Shown here piece after piece: positions 1 through 61,095 of a stretch of DNA of 64,000 bases. The position numbers and the translations under genes are program-made. Below the pieces are notes generated by a model. The model was not told the origin of the DNA and ran no database searches. It worked only from the letters and a program-made list of their open reading frames with translations. The DNA comes from Neorhizobium sp. NCHU2750 (GTDB taxonomy: Bacteria > Pseudomonadota > Alphaproteobacteria > Rhizobiales > Rhizobiaceae), in NCBI RefSeq assembly GCF_003597675.1, contig NZ_CP030827.1, forward strand, positions 310,001 through 374,000. The letters run 5' to 3'. Positions within the stretch are counted from its first letter, which is position 1; every line of letters begins with the position of its first letter.

Positions 1-3000
1 CAGATAGGCACGCTTTCGACCGACATTCTGGCCGCCTTCTCCACGGCGCAGGTCGTTTCCCTGTCGACGGCTGCCGTCGCCAATCTGACAACCGAACAGG
101 TCGGAACCCTGTCCTCCGCCCAGATTGCCGCCCTGTCCACGGCGCAGGTCGCATCGCTGACCTCCACGCAGATGGAAGCGCTGGATGCCGATACGATCAC
201 CGGCTTCTCTGCAGCCCGCATATCCGTTTTGAGCGCTTCCGCGGTCTCCGCCCTCTCGACGGAAGTCATCGCGGCTCTTTCGACGACGCAGATCGCGGCG
301 CTGAGCACGTCCGGCGTAGCAAATCTCACGACCGATCAGATTGCTGCTCTTTCGACGGCACAGGTCGATGCTCTGTCGACACTGCAGATCAGCGTTCTGA
401 AGACGGCGCAACTGTCGGCGCTTTCCAGCGATGACCTTGCAACCTTCTCGACTGCGGACATGGCGGCAATCGGCACCAAGGCGATTTCCGGCCTGAGCAC
501 CAGCACGATCGCTTCCCTGTCGACCGCACAGATTGCCGTTCTGAGCGCAAGTTCCGTTGCCAATCTGACGTCGGACCAGATCGAGGCGCTGTCGTCTTCG
601 CAGATCGCGGGCCTTTCGACGAAACAGATTTCCTCACTCACCTCCACGCAGATGGCGGCGATGAGTGCCTCCACCTTGTCGGATCTCGGCTCCGATCAGA
701 TCGCAGCCATAAGTACGAGTGCTGTCCGCGGCCTTTCCGACGATCAGTTGTCGACGCTGACGACAGCTCAGGTCGCGGCAATGTCGACGAACCAGATGGC
801 GGTGCTGACTTCGGCACAGATATCTGCGTTCGGCACCGACGACATGGCGGCGCTTTCCTCCGACCAGATCGCGGCATTGAGCACGGCGGGCGTGGCCGGT
901 CTTTCCACAAGACAGGTCGCCGCTCTCTCGACCACGCAGGTCGCGGCCCTGACCTCGACACAGGTCGCCGTCCTCAACGCCGACCAGCTGGAAACGCTGG
1001 ATGCGTCCGATCTGGCGACTTTCACCACCAAGGAAATGGCAGCGCTCACATCGAGCGCCGTTTCCGGCTTGACGACTGCCGTCATCGCAAGCCTCTCGAC
1101 TGACCAGGTTGCTGCCCTGAGTGCCACTGGCGTAAAGGGCCTCAGCACCAGCCAGATCTCTGCCCTGTCGACAAGCCAGACCTCGGTCATGACGACCAAG
1201 CAGATTGCGGCGCTCAGCTCCGATCAGTCCAATGCGCTTGGCACGGACGACATCGCGAGCTTCTCCACGGCTCAGATTGCCGCATTCAGCACCGCCGGCA
1301 TCACCGGTCTGACGACGAAGCAGGTGGCGGTACTCTCGACCGCTCAGGCCGCGGCGCTGACCTCCGTCCAGGTCGCCGCATTGAGTTCGGCGCAGATCGC
1401 CGTCATCGGCACGCAGAACATCACGACATTCTCGACCGCCGACGTTGCGTCTATCAATACTGATGCGGTTTCCAGCCTGACCACCGACGCGATTGCGGCA
1501 CTGTCGACAAGCCAGATTGCGTCGCTCAGCACCAGTGCCGTTGCATCTCTGACGACCAAGCAGATTGCCGCCTTGAGCACCGGCCAGGTTGCGGCCTTGT
1601 CGAGCAAGCAGGCTGCGGCGCTCACCTCGCAGCAGATTGCGGCGCTGACTGCCGATGATCTTGAATCCATGTCGACCCTGGCACTGGCAGCCATCAGCTC
1701 CAGCGCCATCGCCGGCCTGTCGACGACAACCCTGGCATCGCTCTCGACCGAGATGATCTCCGATCTCGGTACAGCGGCTATAGCCGGCATGACGACCAAG
1801 CAGATCGCGGCACTCAGCTCCGATCAGGTCGAGGCGCTGACCACCAAGCAGGTCGCCAAGCTGACCTCGGCGCAGGTTGGTGCCATGACCACCGGTGAAA
1901 TCGCCGCTCTGTCCACGCTGCAGATCTCCGCTATCGGCACGGCGGGCATATCGGGCCTGTCGAGCACGCAGGTGCAGGCGCTTTCGACGGCTCAGACAGA
2001 AGCTTTGACCAGCACCCAGGTGGCCGCGTTCTCGTCGAAGCAGGTGGCGGCACTCGGCACCGACGACCTGGCGCTTTTCTCGACGAAGGAAATTTCGGTC
2101 CTGAGTTCGGCCGCCGTTGTCGGTCTCTCGACGGACACGATCGCCTCGCTCTCGACCGATATCGTTGCAGCGCTGAGCACGGCTGCGATCACCGCCCTGT
2201 CGACGACGCAGATGGCGGCTTTCTCCTCGACCCAGCTTGCCGCCCTGACCAGCAGCCAGGTCAGCGCCCTCAATTCGAAACAGCTGGAGACACTTGGAAC
2301 CAGTTATATCGCGTCTCTCTCCACTGATGAGATCGCGACATTGTCCACCGCCGTCATCGCCGGCCTGTCGACCGCCCAGATCGCGGCCATGAGCACGGCC
2401 CAGGCCGAGGCGCTCACCAGTACCCAGATCGCGGTCCTGAGTTCGAACCAGATCGGCGCCCTCGGAAGCGATGATCTCGCGCTCTTCTCCACGCGTGAAA
2501 TCGCGGCATTGGGTTCGTCGGCGATTGCCGGCCTGTCGACCTCGATCCTGCAGTCGCTTTCGAGCGATCAGGTGCAGGCGCTGAGCACGGATGCGATCGT
2601 CGGTCTTTCGACCACCCAGGTTGCCGCCCTGACCAGCGACCAGCTGGAAGCTCTGACCACGCTGCAGTTCGGTGCGCTGACCTCGCGGCAGATCACGGCA
2701 CTCGGCACGACCGGGGCTTCGGTCCTTGCAACCGAGCAGGTCGCCGCCATCAGCACGGCGGCCTTGGCAGGCCTGTCCTCCGCCCAGGTGGCTGCCCTCT
2801 CCACATCTCAGGTCGAAGCACTGACGAGCACGCAGATCGCAGCGCTCAGCTCGACGCAGGTCGCAGCGCTCGGTTCCGACGATCTGGCCGTCCTCACGAC
2901 GAAAGAACTGTCGACGCTGAGTTCCAGTGCGATCACCGGCATCTCCGCCTCCATCCTTGCGTCCTTCACGACGGAACAGGTGTCATCGCTGGGTTCCGCC

Positions 3001-4767
3001 GCAATCGCGGCGCTGACGACGACACAGGTGGCGGCTCTCAGCAGCACGCAGATCGACTCGTTGACGACCGCTCAGGTCAGCGCCTTGAGTTCCAAGCAGA
3101 TTGCCGTCCTCAGCACCGATACGATTGCGGGTCTTTCGACGGATCAGATCGCATCCTTCGGCACGGCCGGCATTGCCGGGCTGACCACCGCCCAGATCAC
3201 GGCGATGTCGACAAGCCAGGTCGAAGCGTTGACCACGGCGCAGGTCGGGGCATTGAAATCGGCACAGGTGGCGGTCCTCGGAACGGACGATATCGCGGTC
3301 TTCTCCACCGCCGATATTGCCGCCCTGAGTTCCAGCGGCGTCGCCGGCCTGTCGAGCGCGGCTTTGGCGGCCATGACCACCGAACAGGTTGCATCTCTCG
3401 GAACTGCCGGGCTTGTCGGCCTGACCAGCGCCCAGATCGCAGCGTTCACCACCGTTCAGATCGAGGCACTGACGGCGACCCAGATTGCTGCATTCAGCTC
3501 CAGGCAGATGAGCGCCTTCGATCTCGACGACCTCCAGACGTTTACGACCGAGGAATTTGCGGCCATCAGCTCGACCGGTATTTCCGGCCTGTCGACCGCC
3601 ACCTTTGCGGCACTGACGACCGACCAGATCGAGGCGCTTTCCACCGCCGCCATGTCGGGCCTCACCACCGCACAGGTTGCGGCTCTGACCGTCGATCAGT
3701 TCGAGAACCTTTCCACCGCCCAGATCGGCGCGCTCTCCTCAACCCAGGTCGCCGCCATTCAGACCGCGGAAATCCTGGCGTTGACCAATGAACAGGTTGC
3801 CGCGATCAGCACCGCGGGCATTGCCGGCCTGACCAGCAGCCAGGTCGCGGCGCTGAGCCTCGACCAGATTTCGGCCCTGTCCACCTTGCAGATCGCAGCC
3901 CTCACATCGACCGGGATAACCGGGTTGAGCGCCGAGGACCTGGAGACCTTCTCGACCGAAGAACTGGCCGCGATCAATTCCAGCGCGATCGCGGGATTGC
4001 CCACCGACTTCATTGCCGCCCTGTCGACACAGGAACTTGCTGCGCTCGGCACCAAGGGCATCGCCGGCCTGACAAGCGCCCAGGTCAACGCCCTGACATC
4101 CGACCAGCTGGGCTCGCTGACGACGACCCAGATCGCCGCCTTCAGCTCCGCGGGTCTCACGGGCCTGTCGACGGACGACATGGACGCATTCTCGACCGAG
4201 GATCTCGCCGCCATCGGCACCGTCGCGATCAAGGGCCTGTCGACCGCGATCATCGCGGCCATGACGACCGACGAACTGGCGGCACTTTCGGCAAGCCAGG
4301 TCGGCGGCCTGAACTACAACCAGATCGTCGCGCTTTCGACCTCCCAGGTCGCATCGCTCTCGACGGAGCAACTGCATGCGCTCAACGCCCTGCAGGCCGC
4401 AGCGCTAGGCACCGACGACGTGGCGGTCCTCACGACCGACGATATCGTGGCGCTCAGCACCGGTGCGATCTCCGGCCTCACGACCGCAGCCATCGCCTCG
4501 CTCACGACCGAGCAGGCCGAGGCGCTGACCGTGGAACAGGTCGCCGCACTGACTTCGGATCAGCTCGCCGTGCTTTCGGACGACGATCTGGCAACCTTCT
4601 CGACCGACGATATCGCCGCCTTCAGCACCACGGCGCTGCCGGGCCTGTCGACGGAAAGCATTGCCGCCATGACGAGCGAGCAGCGCGACACGCTGATCGA
4701 TACGCATATGGCCGCACTGAGCTCCGCCCAGGTCTCGACGATCATCTCGCTCTATCTGGCGGCATAA
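1..4767 (+). CDS. Giant Ser/Thr-rich octapeptide-repeat protein (5' end outside window)
   Basis: The reading frame is open from base 1, so the N-terminus lies outside the window; 1588 residues are visible. From base 13 to the stop every residue belongs to an 8-residue unit of the form L-[ST]-[ST]-x-[QDA]-[IVL]-x-[AGS], about 198 units without a gap. There is no Cys or Trp and there are few charged residues. Marker units carrying Asp-Asp (LGTDDLAL, LSSDDLAT), followed by an FST unit and a unit ending AISG or AIAG, recur every 7 or 10 octads and give a dominant 408-bp period. I see no membrane segment, RTX nonapeptide or sorting motif at the C-terminus (ends ISLYLAA). Ser at position 2 and Gln at position 5 could form a helix N-capping box, so a short-helix solenoid is possible (inference). 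Function unknown; a secreted or surface structural protein is the simplest guess. It converges on a GT41 glycosyltransferase. Confidence 0.85.
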   Translation, partial: QIGTLSTDILAAFSTAQVVSLSTAAVANLTTEQVGTLSSAQIAALSTAQVASLTSTQMEALDADTITGFSAARISVLSASAVSALSTEVIAALSTTQIAALSTSGVANLTTDQIAALSTAQVDALSTLQISVLKTAQLSALSSDDLATFSTADMAAIGTKAISGLSTSTIASLSTAQIAVLSASSVANLTSDQIEALSSSQIAGLSTKQISSLTSTQMAAMSASTLSDLGSDQIAAISTSAVRGLSDDQLSTLTTAQVAAMSTNQMAVLTSAQISAFGTDDMAALSSDQIAALSTAGVAGLSTRQVAALSTTQVAALTSTQVAVLNADQLETLDASDLATFTTKEMAALTSSAVSGLTTAVIASLSTDQVAALSATGVKGLSTSQISALSTSQTSVMTTKQIAALSSDQSNALGTDDIASFSTAQIAAFSTAGITGLTTKQVAVLSTAQAAALTSVQVAALSSAQIAVIGTQNITTFSTADVASINTDAVSSLTTDAIAALSTSQIASLSTSAVASLTTKQIAALSTGQVAALSSKQAAALTSQQIAALTADDLESMSTLALAAISSSAIAGLSTTTLASLSTEMISDLGTAAIAGMTTKQIAALSSDQVEALTTKQVAKLTSAQVGAMTTGEIAALSTLQISAIGTAGISGLSSTQVQALSTAQTEALTSTQVAAFSSKQVAALGTDDLALFSTKEISVLSSAAVVGLSTDTIASLSTDIVAALSTAAITALSTTQMAAFSSTQLAALTSSQVSALNSKQLETLGTSYIASLSTDEIATLSTAVIAGLSTAQIAAMSTAQAEALTSTQIAVLSSNQIGALGSDDLALFSTREIAALGSSAIAGLSTSILQSLSSDQVQALSTDAIVGLSTTQVAALTSDQLEALTTLQFGALTSRQITALGTTGASVLATEQVAAISTAALAGLSSAQVAALSTSQVEALTSTQIAALSSTQVAALGSDDLAVLTTKELSTLSSSAITGISASILASFTTEQVSSLGSAAIAALTTTQVAALSSTQIDSLTTAQVSALSSKQIAVLSTDTIAGLSTDQIASFGTAGIAGLTTAQITAMSTSQVEALTTAQVGALKSAQVAVLGTDDIAVFSTADIAALSSSGVAGLSSAALAAMTTEQVASLGTAGLVGLTSAQIAAFTTVQIEALTATQIAAFSSRQMSAFDLDDLQTFTTEEFAAISSTGISGLSTATFAALTTDQIEALSTAAMSGLTTAQVAALTVDQFENLSTAQIGALSSTQVAAIQTAEILALTNEQVAAISTAGIAGLTSSQVAALSLDQISALSTLQIAALTSTGITGLSAEDLETFSTEELAAINSSAIAGLPTDFIAALSTQELAALGTKGIAGLTSAQVNALTSDQLGSLTTTQIAAFSSAGLTGLSTDDMDAFSTEDLAAIGTVAIKGLSTAIIAAMTTDELAALSASQVGGLNYNQIVALSTSQVASLSTEQLHALNALQAAALGTDDVAVLTTDDIVALSTGAISGLTTAAIASLTTEQAEALTVEQVAALTSDQLAVLSDDDLATFSTDDIAAFSTTALPGLSTESIAAMTSEQRDTLIDTHMAALSSAQVSTIISLYLAA

Positions 4768-4782
4768 CGGATTACCGATAGC

Positions 4783-4803
4783 GCGGGGCAGTCTCTGCCC
4801 CGC
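4783..4803. terminator. Hairpin between convergent genes
   Basis: A perfect 8-bp stem (GCGGGGCA / TGCCCCGC) with a 5-nt loop lies in the 42-bp gap between the stop of the repeat protein and the stop of the convergent glycosyltransferase gene. There is no clear T-run on either side. Its position suggests a shared bidirectional terminator. Confidence 0.6.
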
Positions 4804-4809
4804 CCGTTC

Positions 4810-6879
4810 CTATGCAGCGGGTTCCGACCAGAGGCGGCTATCGGCAGCGATCGGCGCGATCGCGTGCCACTCGGCAAGCTTCTCGCGATAATGCGCGCGA
4901 TAGCTCGCCTCGTCGAAGAACGCGCTGTGAGCCTGAACCAGTTCCGCGCCGATCTCGTAATAGACATCGAGATTGGCAAGATCCGGCACCGGCGTTTCGC
5001 CCCGCTCGCATTCGCCCTGCATCTCCCAGAAGATCTCCTCCAGCCGGCGGGCAAGGCCGGGTATGTCGCGCAGCACGCTCGTCTCGCGCCTGGCCTGCAG
5101 GGCATCCCTGATCGTCTTCAGGCTGGCCGGGCTTTTCGCAAAACCGACAGCCTTCGCAACATAGTCGGCCGGCCCCTCGCAGATCAGCTCCGGCACGCCG
5201 GCCGCATGCACGATGCTGGCGCAGAACCGTGCGGCGAAGCTGCGGCCGGGGAAGGTGAGGACCGGCAGGCCCATCGTCAATGCATCGGCGCCGGTGGAAT
5301 GAGCGCCGTAAGGGAAGGTGTCGAGGAACAGATCGGCCAGTGCAATGCGCGCCAGATGGGCGGCATTCGCTGCCTTGGGGGCAAAGATGATCCGATCGCC
5401 GCTGATCCCGGCCTTCTCGGCGATGTCGCGCAGCCGTTGGTCCACCTTGTCGCCACCGGTCAGCAGCCAGAGCACGCTGTCCGGCGCCTGCCGCAGGATC
5501 TCTATCCACTGGCCATAGGTCGCCTCGGTGATCTTCTGCATGCCGTTGAAGCAGGCAAGCACGAACTTCTCCTTCGGCAGTCCCGCCTGCTCACGCGTCG
5601 GCCTGTCGGCGATCACCCGCTTGCGGTCGATCGGCTGGTCGCAGGCGATGCGGAACACCTTTTCCGAATAATAGATCTCGCTTGTCGCCGGAACGATATG
5701 ATCGTCGCTGATCATGTACTGGTGGAACGGGCTGCCCATCGAACCCGGATAACCGCAGAAATTGACGATGATCGGGGCAGGGCGATAAGCGAAGATCTTC
5801 GTGCGGGCATGCTTTGTATAGCCGTTGACGTCGACCAGCACGTCGATCTCGTCGTCATGGATCAGCTTGGCGGCATCGAGGTCAGTGAGCGTGGCAATGT
5901 CGCGCCAGCAGTCCACCGCAGCCTTCATCCGCGTCTGTGTCGGGTCGTTCACCACCGGATCGCCGCAGTAATAGGCATAGATCTCGACGCTTTTTTTGTC
6001 ATGCAGTTCGAGCACTTCCCTGAGCGCGAAGCCGACGGCATGGTCGCGCAGGTCGGAAGACACATAGCCCACCCGCAGGCGCTTGCCGGTGCCCGTCTTC
6101 TGCTTTGCCTTGCGGCGCTCGAGTGCGCGTGTTTCCACCCGCCCGACCAGGGACTTGTTGTAGCGGTGCGCCTTGGCCAGCTGGAACATCGGATCGTCCG
6201 AATAGCAGGCGAGCGTCAGCGGCGACATGGAATCGATCAGCTGCCGCAGCGTCACATGCGTCGAAGGCGTCAGGATCGGCCATTTGCACTGCCGCTGGCG
6301 CAACGCGCTCCAGTGCTGGCCGGATTCCGGCTTGTCCGGGCGAAGCTCGATGGCCTGCCACAGCGCCGCCTCGGCCTCCTCCATCAGGCCCGCATTTTCC
6401 ATCACCCGGCCGATATGCTGCAGCGTCATCAGCCGGTGGCCGGCGCGCTCGGCGGTCGTTTCCGCCGTCATCGCCGTATAGCTCTGCCATTGCTGGATCG
6501 CCTGCACGGCAAGCCCGCCATCCTCGAAGGCGCGCCCAAGGTTGATATGCGCCGGGCCGAAGGCAGGGTCGAGTTTCAGGCAGGCTCTCAATGCATTGAT
6601 CGAGCCGGCGAGATCGTTGAGCTGCCGCAGCGTCACCGAATAGTTGAAATACACGAGATGAAGAAACGGATTGCTGTCGTTGAAGGCGATCCACGCCTTG
6701 TAGATCTCCGCCGCATCCGCCTTCCGCCCGACTGCGCTGCGGCTCTCGGCCACCGTGAACAGATCGGTGAAGGCGAGCTTCTGGGTGCGTGCCAGTTCGA
6801 GGATTTCGGCAAGCGGGGTATCGGCGGCTAAACTCATGTTCTCGACCATCGCATCCGTAGGATTTGCAGCGACCTGCAT
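4810..6879 (-). CDS. SPINDLY/OGT-type glycosyltransferase (GT41) with N-terminal TPRs
   Basis: About 689 residues. Residues roughly 60-200 are TPR-like helical repeats. Residues about 240-620 match the O-linked N-acetylglucosamine transferase catalytic region: GYVSSDLRDHAVGF at its start, GYPGSMGSP near residue 376, and DTFPYGAHSTGADALTMG near 520, the motif that in OGT contacts the nucleotide-sugar. Known family members move GlcNAc, fucose or other sugars to Ser/Thr of proteins in the cytoplasm; bacterial members often modify adhesins or flagellins. There is no signal peptide, so it probably acts in the cytosol. The start is uncertain: ATG at 6879 is used here, ATG at 6849 or 6834 is possible, and no strong ribosome site is seen. 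It is convergent with, and 42 bp from, a Ser/Thr-repeat protein, which is a plausible acceptor (inference). Confidence 0.85.
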   Translation of the reverse strand: MQVAANPTDAMVENMSLAADTPLAEILELARTQKLAFTDLFTVAESRSAVGRKADAAEIYKAWIAFNDSNPFLHLVYFNYSVTLRQLNDLAGSINALRACLKLDPAFGPAHINLGRAFEDGGLAVQAIQQWQSYTAMTAETTAERAGHRLMTLQHIGRVMENAGLMEEAEAALWQAIELRPDKPESGQHWSALRQRQCKWPILTPSTHVTLRQLIDSMSPLTLACYSDDPMFQLAKAHRYNKSLVGRVETRALERRKAKQKTGTGKRLRVGYVSSDLRDHAVGFALREVLELHDKKSVEIYAYYCGDPVVNDPTQTRMKAAVDCWRDIATLTDLDAAKLIHDDEIDVLVDVNGYTKHARTKIFAYRPAPIIVNFCGYPGSMGSPFHQYMISDDHIVPATSEIYYSEKVFRIACDQPIDRKRVIADRPTREQAGLPKEKFVLACFNGMQKITEATYGQWIEILRQAPDSVLWLLTGGDKVDQRLRDIAEKAGISGDRIIFAPKAANAAHLARIALADLFLDTFPYGAHSTGADALTMGLPVLTFPGRSFAARFCASIVHAAGVPELICEGPADYVAKAVGFAKSPASLKTIRDALQARRETSVLRDIPGLARRLEEIFWEMQGECERGETPVPDLANLDVYYEIGAELVQAHSAFFDEASYRAHYREKLAEWHAIAPIAADSRLWSEPAA

Positions 6880-7082
6880 TGCGGGCAATCATTGCCTCAA
6901 ACCGTCATATCGCCTGCGGCGGACGATGGGCAAGCGTGGGCCAATCTGTGCATCTGTTGGATTCACAGGAACCTGCTCCGGTGACGCATAGTTGAGCAAA
7001 GGTGGCATTTTAACGTTTTGATTCAGCCCATGGAGACGACGCGCTGTTATGAGATCTGACAGCGGAATTTTCCGCGTGAGAG

Positions 7083-7733
7083 ATGGCGATGCACGCGTTG
7101 CAAAAGGCAGTTTCCGGTCGGCAGAACGTCACCGTGTTCGGCATGGACATAGCGGATCTCGATTGGAATTCCGCGCTTGCCCGCGCCGAAACCCTGGCCT
7201 CGACCAGGGTTGGCTCGGCAACGCTCGCCTTTGTCGATGAGAGCAGGCTGGTCGCCGCACTGTTTGCCTCTTCCGCAACCGCCATGCTGAGGCAGCGCTC
7301 CCTGCTTCTGTCGACGGGCGGCATTCTCGTACGGCTACTGCTGAGAGCGATGGGCGGCAAAGGGGCCTTCCAGGCACGTTTTCCGGCCGATCTTTTCGTT
7401 TCTGCGCTGATCACCTATCTGCCGGGGCACCGGCGGATCGCCATTGCGGGAACCGATACAGCAAGGATCGATGCCCTGACGGCCCATTTCGCACGCCACG
7501 CTCCCTGGCATGATGTCATGCCCTTCTCATCGGCTGGCAATCTCTCCGGTCGCTTCGACATCCTGATCGTCGATGCCGTCGATCGGATGGCTGAACGCCG
7601 GGTCATGGAACAGATCGCCGGGGCGGATGCGAGTCTCGTCATTCTCGCCGGAAGCGGACTTTCCCGCTACGTGAACGGCAATCCCGCCTCGGTCGAGCCG
7701 CCGAAGCAGATCTCCACGCCCGCTGCCGCCTGA
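7083..7733 (+). CDS. Degenerate WecG/TagA/CpsF-like glycosyltransferase
   Basis: 216 residues. The fold order resembles the WecG/TagA/CpsF family: an N-terminal VTVFGMDI strand, a central LAFVDESRLVAAL segment where the family has an Asn-containing strand, and RFPADLF in the place of the family's R-x-x-G-x-DL motif. The family Asp-Gly motif, whose Asp is proposed as catalytic base, reads STGG here. The protein is also shorter than typical members (about 240 residues). Family members add N-acetylmannosamine(uronic acid) or glucose to lipid-linked intermediates. Given the changed residues it may be inactive or have shifted function. It lies 87 bp upstream of a Wzz-like gene in the same direction, which supports a role in polysaccharide export or synthesis. 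ATG 7089 is an alternative start. Confidence 0.5.
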   Translation: MAMHALQKAVSGRQNVTVFGMDIADLDWNSALARAETLASTRVGSATLAFVDESRLVAALFASSATAMLRQRSLLLSTGGILVRLLLRAMGGKGAFQARFPADLFVSALITYLPGHRRIAIAGTDTARIDALTAHFARHAPWHDVMPFSSAGNLSGRFDILIVDAVDRMAERRVMEQIAGADASLVILAGSGLSRYVNGNPASVEPPKQISTPAAA

Positions 7734-7820: not shown

Positions 7821-9665
7821 ATGTACGGGCCGATGGACGCCGATCGAGACGACGGAGAGCTGCAGGGGGTTCTGCCTGAAGCACGACCGTCGATCCTGCG
7901 CCGATTGAGCCCGGCCTTCCTCGTCATCGGCATCACGGCCGGCCTGGGCGCAGGCGTGCCGCTGGCCGCCACCCAGTTTCTCGACGTGACCTACAGGGCG
8001 CAGGCGCAGATCTCGGCAGGCGAGGGCGATCGCGACCATGTCGCAACAGCCATCCATGACCTCCAGTCCCGCGCCACGCTGGACAATGTCATCCGCGCGC
8101 TCAACCTCGGGCGCGGTGACGAGTTTTCTGCGAACCGTCCGACGGTGACAAAGGTGATTTCCGACGTCCTGTCCGGCGACGTGACCACGGTCTCCGAGGC
8201 GGAGGATGCGGTGCGCCAGCGGCTGCGCAATGCCATCTCCGTCGATTACTCTGCCGATGATCAGAAGATCGAACTCGACGCCGTGGCAGCAAACCCGGCC
8301 AAGGCGGCCACGCTCGCCAACCGCCTTGCAGACGAGTTGCGCCGCCTGCTCGCCACAGGCAGCGGCCCCGCACGTGATCCGCAGCTTGACAAAATGCGCG
8401 CCGCCGCCGACCGGGCCGATGCCGCACTGGCAGGCTTCGCGGCCAAGCTTGACGGCGATACGCGGACAAGGCTGAAGACCTTCGAGGACGACCGCAGCTC
8501 GGTCGAGGCAGGTCTCGGCGAGGCCGAGCAACAGGTGAAGGATCTCACCGCCAAGCAGGCGCTTGCGGCATCGATGACCCTCTCCGACGTGCTGACCAAG
8601 CCATTGCCCGACAGCTTGGAATTCACCGGCCTCGAATATGCGCGGCAGCGATATGTGCAGGCCGATCTGGTGCTGCAGCAGCTCTCCGTCACGCTCGGGC
8701 CTCTTCATCCAAGACGAGCGGCCGCCCAGTCCGTCGTCGATGGCGCCCGGCGCGACATCGGCAGCGCCCTGAGCAAGCTCTCCGTCTCGCTGAAGGATGA
8801 GGTCGCTTCGGCGACGACATCCCTTGCCGATCTCAAGAACCATCAGGCCGCCCTGTTGGCCGACACGCAGCTGAACGACATCTCGAAGCAGCTGACCACG
8901 CTCCAGAACGCCGCCGACGAGGCCCGCAGCAATCTGGAAAAGCTGCAGGCTTCCGCGCCCGTCTCGAAACCGGCCGTGCTTGCTCTCCCGCCCGTGCTGA
9001 TGCCGGCCACCGCTGCCTCGGTGACCCGGCTCGGACCGGACATGACGATGCTCGCCGGTATCGGCGCGGCGACCGGCCTGGTCATCGGCCTTGCTTTGTC
9101 GGCGCTGGGCTATCGTCGCCAATCGCGCCTTGCGGACGAACTGGACGACATGCCGATCGAGCTTGAGATCCCTGATGCGGACATCCTGCCGCAAAGGCAG
9201 CAGCAGGCGTATCCGCATGTGCCGGCCGCCATGCTGGTCGAGCCTGTCATCATGCAGGACATGGCGCAGGATGAGGATGCCGATGATCGCGTCATCGACA
9301 TCGATCATCTCCTGCTCGAACCCGGTCATGGCCGTCCCGTTGCCGCGAACGACCTTGTGCAAGATGACGACCTCGAGCCGCGCTTTGCCGCCAATGACAC
9401 AACCTCGTTCGGTGATCGGATGAGGTCGCTTCTGGTCGAGCACCAGAGACTTGCCGAACAGGCGGACCTTCCGGCACTGCTTGCCGCCGCCGTCGATCAT
9501 GCCCGCCGCCGCCTGGCGGAAGCCGACGGGCAGTCGCTTGTCGCCGCACAGCTGAGCGAGACAGGCCACGATATCGACGAACTTCTGGAATTCCAGCGCG
9601 AGCTTTCGGAATTGCGGGAACTGATCCGCCTCCATTCCACCAGCGATCTCAAGGCAACCGGCTGA
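7821..9665 (+). CDS. Wzz/GumC-like polysaccharide co-polymerase without kinase domain
   Basis: 614 residues. A first membrane segment spans about residues 31-54, followed by a long periplasmic region rich in Ala, Glu and Lys with coiled-coil character (residues about 60-395), and a second membrane segment at about 412-433 (LAGIGAATGLVIGLALSALG). This is the topology of chain-length determinant proteins of Wzx/Wzy pathways. The cytoplasmic tail (about 180 residues) has no Walker A/B motifs, so it is not a BY-kinase; it is acidic and probably partly disordered. The preceding WecG-like gene and nearby glycosyltransferase suggest a surface polysaccharide locus, although no polymerase or flippase is in view. 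Start ATG 7821 is preceded by a GGTGG-type ribosome site. Confidence 0.65.
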   Translation: MYGPMDADRDDGELQGVLPEARPSILRRLSPAFLVIGITAGLGAGVPLAATQFLDVTYRAQAQISAGEGDRDHVATAIHDLQSRATLDNVIRALNLGRGDEFSANRPTVTKVISDVLSGDVTTVSEAEDAVRQRLRNAISVDYSADDQKIELDAVAANPAKAATLANRLADELRRLLATGSGPARDPQLDKMRAAADRADAALAGFAAKLDGDTRTRLKTFEDDRSSVEAGLGEAEQQVKDLTAKQALAASMTLSDVLTKPLPDSLEFTGLEYARQRYVQADLVLQQLSVTLGPLHPRRAAAQSVVDGARRDIGSALSKLSVSLKDEVASATTSLADLKNHQAALLADTQLNDISKQLTTLQNAADEARSNLEKLQASAPVSKPAVLALPPVLMPATAASVTRLGPDMTMLAGIGAATGLVIGLALSALGYRRQSRLADELDDMPIELEIPDADILPQRQQQAYPHVPAAMLVEPVIMQDMAQDEDADDRVIDIDHLLLEPGHGRPVAANDLVQDDDLEPRFAANDTTSFGDRMRSLLVEHQRLAEQADLPALLAAAVDHARRRLAEADGQSLVAAQLSETGHDIDELLEFQRELSELRELIRLHSTSDLKATG

Positions 9666-59739: not shown

Positions 59740-61095
59740 TCAGACCCCAAGCCTGTCCCTGAGGCCGTAATACCATGCGCCAAGCGCGGTGAGCGGCACG
59801 CGGAACATCCGTCCGCCGGGGAAGGGCAGGTTGGGCAGCGATGCCCAGATATCGAAGCGCTCGGCATGGCCGGCTACGGCCTCGCCGAGGATCTTTCCGA
59901 GAAGATGCGTCGTCGTCACCCCATGGCCGCTGTCGCCATGGGAGAAATAGACCGTGTCGGAAAGCTTGCCCATATGCGGGATGCGGGTCAGCGTCAGGGC
60001 GAAATTGCCGCTCCAGGCATAGTCGATCCGGGTACTCTTCAATTGCGGAAATGTCTTCAGCATGTTCGGCCGGATCACGCCGGTCAGGTTCTTCGGGTCC
60101 GTGCCGCCATAGCCGATACCGCCGCCATAGAGCAGCCGGTTGTCTGCGGTGCGGCGATAGTAGTCGAGAATGTAATTGGCATCCTCGACGCAATAGTTTG
60201 CGGGCAACAGGCTCTCGATCAGCGACGCATCGAGCGGTTCCGTCACCATCACCTGGCTCGATACCGGCATCATCCGGCTGTGAATTTCCGGCGCAAGCGG
60301 CGCGAGATAGGCATTGCCGCAGATCAGCACATAGGATGCCGTCACCGATCCCGTCCCCGTGCTGACAACGGGCTTGCTCTTCGCCGTATCGACCGCAATC
60401 GCCCGCGATCCCTCGAAGATCCTGGCGCCAAGGCTTTCGGCAGCCGATGCCTCACCGAGCACGAGATTGAGCGGATGGATATGCCCGCCGAGCTTGTCGA
60501 TCATCCCGCCCGCATAACGGTCGGTCTTCACGTATTTTGACACGTCCGCCTTCGACACCATTTCCAGCCCGGCATGCCCATGGCGTTCCCAGTCGGCCTT
60601 GTGATGCTCCATCTCGCGGATCTGCTTGTCGGTAAAGGCGGCGAAGAAGCCGCCATGTTCGAGGTCGCAGTCGATCGCATATTTCTTGACCCGCTCGCGG
60701 ATGATATTGCCCCCCTCGAGCGACATCCGGCCCAGCGCGATTGCCTTGTCTTTTCCGTAGCGTCCGGCAATCGTTTCCAGATCGCGGCTATAGCCATTGA
60801 CGATTTGCCCGCCATTGCGGCCCGAGGCGCCGAAGCCGATCCGCGTTGCTTCGAGCACGATGACCGAATAGCCGCGCTCGGACAGTTCAAGTGCTGCCGA
60901 AATGCCGGTAAATCCCGCCCCGATGATACAGACATCGGCGGTCAGATCACCGGCGAGCGCTGGGCGCACGGTCTTGTCGTTGGCGCTCGCTGCATACCAG
61001 GATCCGGCATGACCGGGATTGGCCCCGGACCCGGCATAGCCGGTAGTGGCCAAGAACCCGGCATGGCCGGTATTGGCGTTGTCTTGAAACGTCAT
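59740..61095 (-). CDS. FAD-dependent oxidoreductase, PuuB type, with repeat-bearing N-terminus
   Basis: 451 residues. FAD motif VCIIGAGFTGISAALELSERG near residue 55, FGASGRNGGQIVNGYS, and C-terminal HGDSGHGVTTTHLLGK mark the gamma-glutamylputrescine-oxidase-like family. It begins 1 bp after the stop of a GS-like gene, so they are coupled. The first 35 residues are made of three 9-residue repeats (GHAGFLATT, GYAGSGANP, GHAGSW) encoded by a 27-bp tandem repeat; this part is absent from usual family members. A later start would remove it, but no better start is visible. Confidence 0.8.
   Translation of the reverse strand: MTFQDNANTGHAGFLATTGYAGSGANPGHAGSWYAASANDKTVRPALAGDLTADVCIIGAGFTGISAALELSERGYSVIVLEATRIGFGASGRNGGQIVNGYSRDLETIAGRYGKDKAIALGRMSLEGGNIIRERVKKYAIDCDLEHGGFFAAFTDKQIREMEHHKADWERHGHAGLEMVSKADVSKYVKTDRYAGGMIDKLGGHIHPLNLVLGEASAAESLGARIFEGSRAIAVDTAKSKPVVSTGTGSVTASYVLICGNAYLAPLAPEIHSRMMPVSSQVMVTEPLDASLIESLLPANYCVEDANYILDYYRRTADNRLLYGGGIGYGGTDPKNLTGVIRPNMLKTFPQLKSTRIDYAWSGNFALTLTRIPHMGKLSDTVYFSHGDSGHGVTTTHLLGKILGEAVAGHAERFDIWASLPNLPFPGGRMFRVPLTALGAWYYGLRDRLGV
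61004..61084. repeat. 27-bp tandem repeat within the PuuB-like gene
   Basis: Three copies: 61004-61030, 61031-61057 and 61058-61084. Each begins CCGGCAT, followed by a CCGG(G/T)A core and a TGGC segment. Copies differ at several positions, mostly at the right end. The unit is 9 codons, so copy-number change keeps the reading frame. Confidence 0.8.

Follow-up and report, generated by a model that had tools for sequence, protein, structure and literature searches.

A giant ALTTAQ repeat protein linked to a GT41 glycosyltransferase in rhizobia: a candidate protein O-glycosylation pair

A candidate glycosylation locus

In Neorhizobium sp. NCHU2750, a giant octad-repeat protein of the ALTTAQ family is encoded tail-to-tail with a GT41 glycosyltransferase, and we consider it likely that the locus is a dedicated protein O-glycosylation pair, with octad position 2 as the acceptor, galactofuranose as the probable donated sugar, and export as a later step. 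Gene identities, co-occurrence, linkage, octad composition, and the predicted fold were obtained directly. The window, the whole 64,000-nucleotide stretch analyzed (C1:310001-374000), contains the following features:

1..4767, + strand: 3′ portion, 1588 codons long, of the gene for the ALTTAQ octad-repeat protein (PF20080, single phase), the proposed glycoprotein acceptor
4681..4764, + strand: C-terminal segment of the ALTTAQ protein
4768..4809, no strand: convergent intergenic gap of 42 bp between the ALTTAQ and GT41 genes
4810..6888, − strand: putative TPR-GT41 protein O-glycosyltransferase (PF13844 and TPR), 692 aa if read from TTG, 689 aa if ATG 6879 is the start
7083..7733, + strand: "WecG-like" ORF, probably outside the system, conserved near GT41 among the closest relatives, in 6 loci of the best 80 of 119
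7821..9665, + strand: "Wzz-like" ORF, probably outside the system, found in the same 6 of the best 80 of 119 loci

The octad-repeat protein

The repeat reading frame is already open at base 1 of the window; its ATG (C1:307448, L003:15448) lies 2553 bp upstream of the window, and the full protein has 2439 aa, or about 305 octads, all in one phase. PF20080, the ALTTAQ repeat, matches with 937.8 bits against a curated cut-off of 26.4 (E 8.6e-291, far beyond chance), and the window part by itself holds 62 matching stretches. Of 257 [LFIM][STGN][ST] motifs, 249 share a single phase out of the eight. The first-pass annotation had described about two hydroxyls per octad, hundreds in total, in a regular array, and this is borne out by the 718 Ser and Thr residues (29.4%) of the full protein, about 2.35 per octad. 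Self-matching peaks at a lag of 136 residues, which is 17 octads. At the DNA level the octad units have diverged, and in the window part of the gene TRF detects a 24-bp period in three short stretches.

The AlphaFold2 model of the residues encoded at 3565-4764 shows a single short helix for each octad (pLDDT 96) and ends in two longer helices, those of the C-terminal segment. Many ALTTAQ homologues terminate in a Q[VI]xA[VI]I.xY-type motif, and the segment is a candidate export signal. Fold searches returned weak solenoid matches only. The protein matches HeliScrew4 (PDB 9zem; E 1.1e-16 across 109 residues), which, judged by its name, is probably a designed or consensus protein. HeliScrew4 has the same octad, but it is 120 aa long and carries mostly proline where GT41-linked proteins have Thr or Ser. 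The position-2 hydroxyl is therefore not needed for the fold.

The GT41 enzyme

The first-pass annotation placed a SPINDLY/OGT-type enzyme 42 bp away, ending at 6879, the ATG listed above, and this description holds. PF13844 matches at E 2.9e-71 (240.8 bits against a curated cut-off of 25), and N-terminal TPRs at residues 79-119 exceed the cut-offs of PF13181 (30.2 versus 25.7 bits) and PF13428 (27.9 versus 23.5). The nearest solved structures are XcOGT (2jlb), human OGT, and SPINDLY; the alignment to XcOGT spans residues 132-611 (E 2.1e-79) and includes H283, K452, H530, and D535, which are invariant in 18 orthologues and which we take to be the His, Lys, and His/Asp functional positions of OGT. 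A simple scan of the 42-bp gap found no terminator-like site.

With these three GT41 enzymes the window protein shares a TPR region and a PF13844 catalytic domain, but unlike them it is linked to a single giant repeat protein as well as to a gene for a nucleotide sugar. A transferase dedicated to a large exported protein is also a feature of HMW1C/NGT adhesin glycosylation, in which a large exported adhesin is reported to receive N-linked hexoses on Asn (PMC2877744, PMC3012730), whereas Ser/Thr is proposed here. The window enzyme scores only 19.5 bits against the NGT model, whose cut-off is 1000.

Co-occurrence and linkage

In a survey of 247 genomes of the family (the best four or fewer GT41 candidates per genome, E<=1e-50), orthologues of the enzyme, at 59-100% identity with the next match at 36%, occur in 24. 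ALTTAQ is present in all 24 of these genomes versus 17 of the 223 without an orthologue (Fisher 1e-22), and lies within 1.9 kb of GT41 in 23 of them. A second set, 80 named loci that are the best 80 of 119 relatives, was found by GT41 alone and overlaps the first; here ALTTAQ lies within 1.6 kb in 73 of 80 and elsewhere in the genome in the remaining 7. The linkage persists through convergent, co-directional, and divergent orientations; Rhizobium wenxiniae DSM 100734 (L101) is arranged like the window. An ALTTAQ ORF is also near GT41 in all six plasmid records examined (of 92), which stand outside the other counts.

The association runs in one direction. ALTTAQ is matched in 41 of the 247 genomes, and 17 of these have no GT41 orthologue; ten of the 17 carry strong arrays, seven of them without any PF13844 match. 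The repeat protein can thus exist without this enzyme. The expectation in the first-pass annotation that the two genes co-occur and stay adjacent therefore holds from the side of the enzyme, and the frequent separation that it named as evidence against the pairing is found only as ALTTAQ without GT41.

Five ALTTAQ genomes come from other families of the class, and PF13844 genes are close by in three of them, from two genera. In G475, GT41 sits between two ALTTAQ genes, with gaps of 43 and 139 bp, and in G447 and G543 it lies about 4 kb from ALTTAQ. G312 has GT41 genes that are not near ALTTAQ, and no GT41 was found in G413. The pairing of substrate and enzyme, originally drawn from adjacency and composition, is strengthened by co-occurrence, linkage, two distant lineages with their own pair, and the position-2 signature described below, while glycosylation itself stays a prediction from sequence.

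Octad position 2 as likely acceptor

Among rows that share ancestry, the fraction of Ser/Thr at octad position 2 is 0.61-0.97 in 26 GT41-linked proteins versus 0.24-0.65 in 13 unlinked ones (p = 8e-7), and the difference holds for genus means (14 linked versus 9 unlinked, p = 1e-4). At position 1 the mean is 0.75 in linked and unlinked proteins alike (p = 0.73). Position 2 is thereby marked as the likely acceptor, since its hydroxyl is the only one of the octad that linkage to GT41 raises in frequency. Linked rows are the nearest copy, one per genome, except for G475, where the longer of the two flanking copies (0.69) was used and a remote copy was entered as unlinked; fragments at contig ends among the rows include L079, L087, and L089. 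The comparison omits G187, whose listed ALTTAQ matches lie on another contig, G413, none of whose ORFs reaches 10 in-phase octads, and a further seven, weak genomes (G035, G070, G086, G159, G200, G220, and G221) with 1-6 ALTTAQ matches each in ORFs of 583-3590 aa. For the 73 named loci with linkage (among the best 80 of 119), the median at the copy closest to GT41 is 0.86 (range 0.51-0.98).

Position-2 hydroxyls could instead be structural or clade-specific and unrelated to the enzyme, with the linkage reflecting joint transfer, a reading that we regard as improbable. The rows are indeed related by descent, and three genomes of one genus without any PF13844 match (G105, G177, and G235) have intermediate values of 0.53-0.64; G062, a strong array without an orthologue, has 0.49. 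The contrast nevertheless holds at the genus level and inside a single genome, G447, where the linked copy has 0.94 and the unlinked copy 0.29. The proline that HeliScrew4 mostly carries at this position likewise speaks against a structural need for the hydroxyl. Where a locus holds more than one distinct copy, the highest value belongs to the one closest to GT41 in 6/6 of the family set and in 6/8 of the named loci (best 80 of 119), one of which shares a contig with the family set. This trend is reversed in L170 (0.51 near, 0.72 far) and in G475, whose copy at 43 bp has 0.59 and whose copy at 139 bp has 0.69; both reversals favor the structural or clade-specific explanation.

Substitution patterns were compared in 11 linked and 5 unlinked hand-chosen pairs. 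Hydroxyls at position 2 are kept at 92.1% in linked versus 76.4% in unlinked pairs, and Ser-Thr swaps make up 0.57 versus 0.14 of the changes, while linked and unlinked pairs are alike at position 1 (90.5% and 93.1% kept) and position 3 (59.6% and 56.6%). Since site composition predicts about those swap shares, the exchange is not separate evidence for an acceptor role and speaks for a structural or clade-specific origin.

The probable sugar donor

A gene for UDP-galactopyranose mutase, glf, is present in all 24 GT41 genomes versus 38 of the 223 others (p = 7e-17), and within 2010 bp of GT41 in 22 of the 24. This suggests UDP-galactofuranose, made through the linked glf, as the probable donor in most rhizobia. 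Without a GT41 orthologue, glf shows no association with ALTTAQ (4 of 17 ALTTAQ genomes versus 34 of 206 others, p = 0.5). Against this, in 20 of the 80 named loci (best 80 of 119) no glf was found in the flank; these represent 19 genomes, 18 of which carry glf elsewhere, while one, a MAG, has no glf at all. In Neorhizobium sp. NCHU2750, too, the gene lies at a distance, 17.7 kb from GT41 and outside the window; its product reaches 305.9 bits for TIGR00031 (cut-off 303.75), and its nearest solved structure is 2bi7 (E 1e-177). In one distant pair, that of the Niveispirillum-type lineage (G447), a UDP-xylose synthase gene beside GT41 replaces glf. Known GT41 donors are UDP-GlcNAc, UDP-Glc, and GDP-Fuc; to our knowledge UDP-galactofuranose is not among them.

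Neighboring genes and alternative targets

The enzyme could alternatively be an FlmG-like glycosyltransferase acting on flagellin or the hook, with the ALTTAQ gene a bystander in a flagellar region. The repeat gene directly follows a flgE-flgK-flgL-flaF-flbT-flgD-fliQ run (the first three identified by Pfam, the others named from sequence), and because 15 of the 80 cassettes (best 80 of 119) match one of 17 flagellar or chemotaxis query genes in their flanks, flagellar targets are possible. In Caulobacter, the flagellin O-glycosyltransferase FlmG is soluble, requires pseudaminic acid, and modifies six flagellins (PMC7591256). It resembles the present enzyme in being soluble and alphaproteobacterial, in its N-terminal substrate-binding and C-terminal transferase parts, and in needing its own unusual sugar pathway. 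The differences are that here the partner is a solenoid of repeats offering candidate sites by the hundred and the sugar gene is glf or UDP-xylose synthase. Flagellins of R. leguminosarum stain as glycoproteins (PMC2936354). However, 65 of the 80 flanks (best 80 of 119) match none of the 17 genes, against 73 of 80 with ALTTAQ, a separate GT41 paralogue (36% identity, C1:273579-275543) adjoins four flagellin-like genes in the same genome, and the hydroxyl signature tracks GT41 linkage. We therefore give a flagellar role little credence.

It is similarly unlikely that a surface polysaccharide or a different glycoprotein is what glf and GT41 work on, with ALTTAQ binding that glycan rather than being the substrate. 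Polysaccharides are the usual destination of glf, the glf of this genome adjoins a GT2 gene and a PF07388 gene, and a Ser/Thr-rich Cadherin-like gene adjoins GT41 in R. oryziradicis, where its product has an autotransporter domain, and in Allorhizobium terrae. Against this, TPR-GT41 enzymes act on proteins, and a lectin role for ALTTAQ would not predict one enriched hydroxyl per octad. Few genes also recur beside the enzyme: with ALTTAQ excluded, the 45 largest neighbor clusters of the best 80 of 119 loci include just three that are repeatedly found 600 bp or less from GT41, namely glf, a PF12248 protein, and, in the closest relatives only, the WecG-like ORF.

The WecG-like and Wzz-like genes had initially been taken to point to the cell surface, and this support falls away, as neither ORF has a confirmed family. 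ORF 7083-7733 has no Pfam or NCBIfam match at E<=1, and all matches of ORF 7821-9665 lie below curated cut-offs, the best polysaccharide-related one being TIGR01006 (E 0.017). ABC/HlyD exporter genes, identified by Pfam, are linked to the repeat gene in G447 and G543; the G447 adaptor passes TIGR01843 (292.4, cut-off 208.65), while its ABC protein falls below TIGR01846 (605.8, cut-off 725.55). Among the same 45 rhizobial clusters, compared by their first 60 residues only, no exporter was recognized.

Proposed mechanism

In the preferred reading, a dedicated O-glycosylation pair, the TPR-GT41 enzyme would bind the giant ALTTAQ solenoid in the cytoplasm and place sugars on the second hydroxyl of octads of the form L-S/T-S/T-x-Q-I/V-A-A, so that one molecule could carry as many as a few hundred. 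The probable donor in most rhizobia, UDP-galactofuranose, would be made by the linked glf. The decorated protein would then be exported, and type I secretion may be the route in the single genus that has such genes between ALTTAQ and GT41. We infer glycosylation, acceptor position, donor, export, and any surface or matrix role from the gene content and composition described above. More tentatively, and with more doubt than confidence, the coating may be modular: GT41 would add galactofuranose in rhizobia or xylose in the Niveispirillum type, depending on which sugar-supply gene accompanies it, on one defined hydroxyl in each of about 300 octads, resulting in a regular lattice.

Implications

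The PF20080 family line gives a name only. Literature searches, with most subscription papers outside their scope, found no paper with the word ALTTAQ or on HeliScrew, none joining UDP-galactopyranose mutase, rhizobium, and O-glycosylation, and, among the titles listed for octapeptide and solenoid terms, for GT41 with galactofuranose, and for the SPINDLY family with rhizobium, none on an ALTTAQ-GT41 pair. The present analysis thus offers a functional lead for the ALTTAQ family where none was found in the literature searched, and it predicts an enzyme, a donor, and an acceptor position, each of which can be tested. If the donor is UDP-galactofuranose, GT41 chemistry would extend to a furanose sugar, and protein glycosylation would be a new role for glf; if the modular coating is also correct, this would be the first GT41 known to us to use that donor and the first function for ALTTAQ repeats. 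Since natural arrays occur both alongside the enzyme and apart from it, in some cases inside a single genome, they would provide a ready system for studying GT41 site choice, a question that also concerns human OGT. Ultimately, if the pairing is true, rhizobia and a few relatives would possess an undescribed way to coat a giant protein.

The Repeat Protein and Its Convergent Neighbor

The octad-repeat protein belongs to Pfam PF20080, the ALTTAQ repeat. The window boundary interrupts its gene, which occupies window positions 1-4767 and extends upstream; with the flanking genome it spans 7320 bp and encodes 2439 aa, comprising about 305 octads and 718 Ser plus Thr residues. The octad consensus is L-[ST]-[ST]-x-Q-[IV]-A-A, positions 1 and 2 being its two hydroxyl sites, and a single phase holds 249 of the 257 [LFIM][STGN][ST] motifs. 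Self-match of the full protein peaks at a lag of 136 residues (17 octads), within a series of peaks at 56, 80, 136, 216, 272, and 352 that describes a super-period of 17 octads (10 + 7). At the DNA level the repeats have decayed, with TRF detecting only three short stretches, and the octad therefore appears to be kept by selection on the protein. A separate tandem repeat (27-bp unit, 2.9 copies) lies at window positions 60999-61077.

AlphaFold2, run on the C-terminal 400 residues together with 28 relatives, predicts a single helix in each octad (about 4-6 residues), followed by two longer C-terminal helices (pLDDT 96, pTM 0.84). The solved HeliScrew4 (9zem) matches the octads by sequence (E 1.1e-16), and its position 2 is mostly proline. 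Convergent to the ALTTAQ gene and 42 bases past it lies the gene for a TPR-GT41 enzyme of 692 aa, whose nearest solved structures are XcOGT, then OGT and SPINDLY.

Co-occurrence and Adjacency

One set of 247 family genomes was searched for both genes, with at most four GT41 candidates scored per genome. GT41 orthologues form a clearly delimited group of 24 genomes at 59-100% identity and >900 bits, and the next match falls to 328 bits and 36%. ALTTAQ matches occur in 41 of the 247 genomes (40 above the cut-off). The first-pass annotation had proposed the two genes as substrate and enzyme, to be checked by their co-occurrence and adjacency across genomes. Co-occurrence stands in one direction, as all 24 orthologue genomes carry ALTTAQ (Fisher 1e-22); the converse fails, since the orthologue is missing from ten family genomes with strong ALTTAQ arrays, of which seven have no PF13844 match whatsoever. 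In 23 of the 24 genomes, GT41 has an ALTTAQ ORF no more than 1.9 kb away, and in the last (G187) the listed ALTTAQ matches sit on a different contig. Among named genomes, where loci were found by GT41 sequence alone and the best 80 of 119 were taken, an ALTTAQ ORF lies within 1.6 kb in 73 of 80, in all three orientations, and all seven remaining genomes carry ALTTAQ elsewhere. In two of these seven, GT41 instead adjoins S/T-rich proteins with Cadherin-like/He_PIG domains (L121:2-2161 and L123:3325-9351), one of which, in L121, has an autotransporter domain; these are possibly a second substrate.

ALTTAQ is found in 5 of 288 other genomes of the class, and PF13844 genes lie near it in three of the five, representing two genera. 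In G475, a GT41 gene (45% identity) is flanked by two ALTTAQ genes with gaps of 43 and 139 bp. G447 and G543 each have two GT41 genes in tandem (43-45% and 32-33%), the end of the pair lying some 4 kb from ALTTAQ. GT41 genes occur away from ALTTAQ in G312, and none was found in ALTTAQ-positive G413.

Flagellar Context

ALTERNATIVES. The main rival explanation is that GT41 is a flagellin enzyme. It draws on the position of the pair after a flgE-to-fliQ run in its own genome, and on flagellar or chemotaxis queries matched in the flank of 15 of the 80 named loci. The own locus (L003; contig C1) contains the following:

L003:2605-8452: GT2, glf (UDP-galactopyranose mutase), PF07388 (polysialyltransferase-like), and DUF707 genes, in the flagellar region, with a fliR-like gene on one side and a response regulator on the other
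L003:9732-15173 (C1:301732-307173): flgE, flgK, flgL, flaF, flbT, flgD, fliQ run, which stops 274 bp short of the start codon of the ALTTAQ gene

However, a separate GT41 of the same genome adjoins four flagellin-like genes, and flagellar genes accompany GT41 far less constantly than ALTTAQ does. This paralogue (36% identity), which together with the flagellin-like genes occupies G000:C1:273579-280482, left of the window, is likely a flagellin glycosyltransferase. The stretch from fliQ to flgL is found on this same side of the ALTTAQ gene in six close relatives (L101-L106), and the ALTTAQ gene may share flagellar regulation.

Hydroxyl Residues at Octad Position 2

Ser/Thr was counted per octad position in one ALTTAQ copy per genome, comparing 26 GT41-linked with 13 unlinked proteins; the p values take related rows as independent. 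Position 1 is alike in both (mean 0.75, p 0.73), and positions 3 to 7 show no difference (p 0.14 or more), whereas position 2 ranges from 0.61 to 0.97 in linked and from 0.24 to 0.65 in unlinked proteins (p 8e-7; at genus level, 14 vs. 9, p 1e-4). Copies nearest GT41 in the 73 named loci, a set overlapping the family set, have a median of 0.86 (range 0.51-0.98). Within G447, the linked copy reaches 0.94 and the unlinked copy 0.29. Where a locus has at least two distinct copies, the nearest is richest at position 2 in 6/6 family-set and 6/8 named loci, omitting L073 (family) and L113 (named), in which the same gene is broken by a run of N; the exceptions are L145 (nearest piece second) and L170 (reversed). 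G475 is also reversed, with 0.59 at 43 bp and 0.69 at 139 bp. Against the trend are G105, G177, and G235 (one genus, no GT41; 0.53-0.64), G062 (0.49), and the remote copy of G475 (0.65). That ALTTAQ is instead a glycan-binding protein would not predict the position-2 enrichment.

Sugar Supply

The glf gene is present in 62 of the 247 family genomes, occurring in 24/24 with the GT41 orthologue vs. 38/223 without (p 7e-17). It lies within 2010 bp of GT41 in 22 of the 24, at 13.3 kb in G204 and 17.8 kb in the own genome (between matched parts). Without the orthologue, glf occurs in 4/17 genomes with ALTTAQ and 34/206 without; the enzyme, not the repeat protein, is what glf tracks. Of the named loci (best 80 of 119), 60 contain glf, 55 of them within 2.5 kb. 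The other 20 loci represent 19 genomes, of which 18 have glf elsewhere and one, a MAG, yielded none. A seven-locus cluster near glf includes a galE, identified in the single member tested (TIGR01179, with 410.5 bits against a cut-off of 262.3). The glf product could also be used by a second transferase. In 18 of the 80 loci (e.g., L009:17043-18296, L174:12973-14226), a PF12248-domain protein some 417 aa long is encoded near GT41, with glf next in 15 of the 18; it is possibly a further transferase.

No glf match was found within the stretches examined at the distant loci (G447, G543, G475). Directly upstream of GT41 in G447 is a protein nearest to UDP-glucuronate decarboxylase, or UDP-xylose synthase (E 2e-128), and close to the G475 pair is an epimerase-family protein that looks similar. 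We infer that the donor varies by lineage, with UDP-Galf in rhizobia and UDP-xylose in the G447 lineage.

Possible Export and Relation to Known Glycosylation

By eye, no signal peptide is seen at the ALTTAQ N-terminus, and both termini look alike with and without GT41. In the 45 largest neighbor clusters of the rhizobial loci, no exporter was recognized from the first 60 residues. In G447 and G543 (one genus), an HlyD-type adaptor and ABC transporter (NCBIfam for G447 only) suggest that the ALTTAQ protein may undergo type I secretion:

L212:6683-10227 and L214:5198-8742: the adaptor and transporter genes, in the interval from GT41 to ALTTAQ

Both families, that of the enzyme and that of the repeat, are already known; their pairing, the linkage to a sugar gene, and the proposed acceptor signature at position 2 were not found in the limited body of literature searched. 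We regard this as a putative protein O-glycosylation system with one giant protein as its dedicated substrate, which would be a variant of known protein O-glycosylation.
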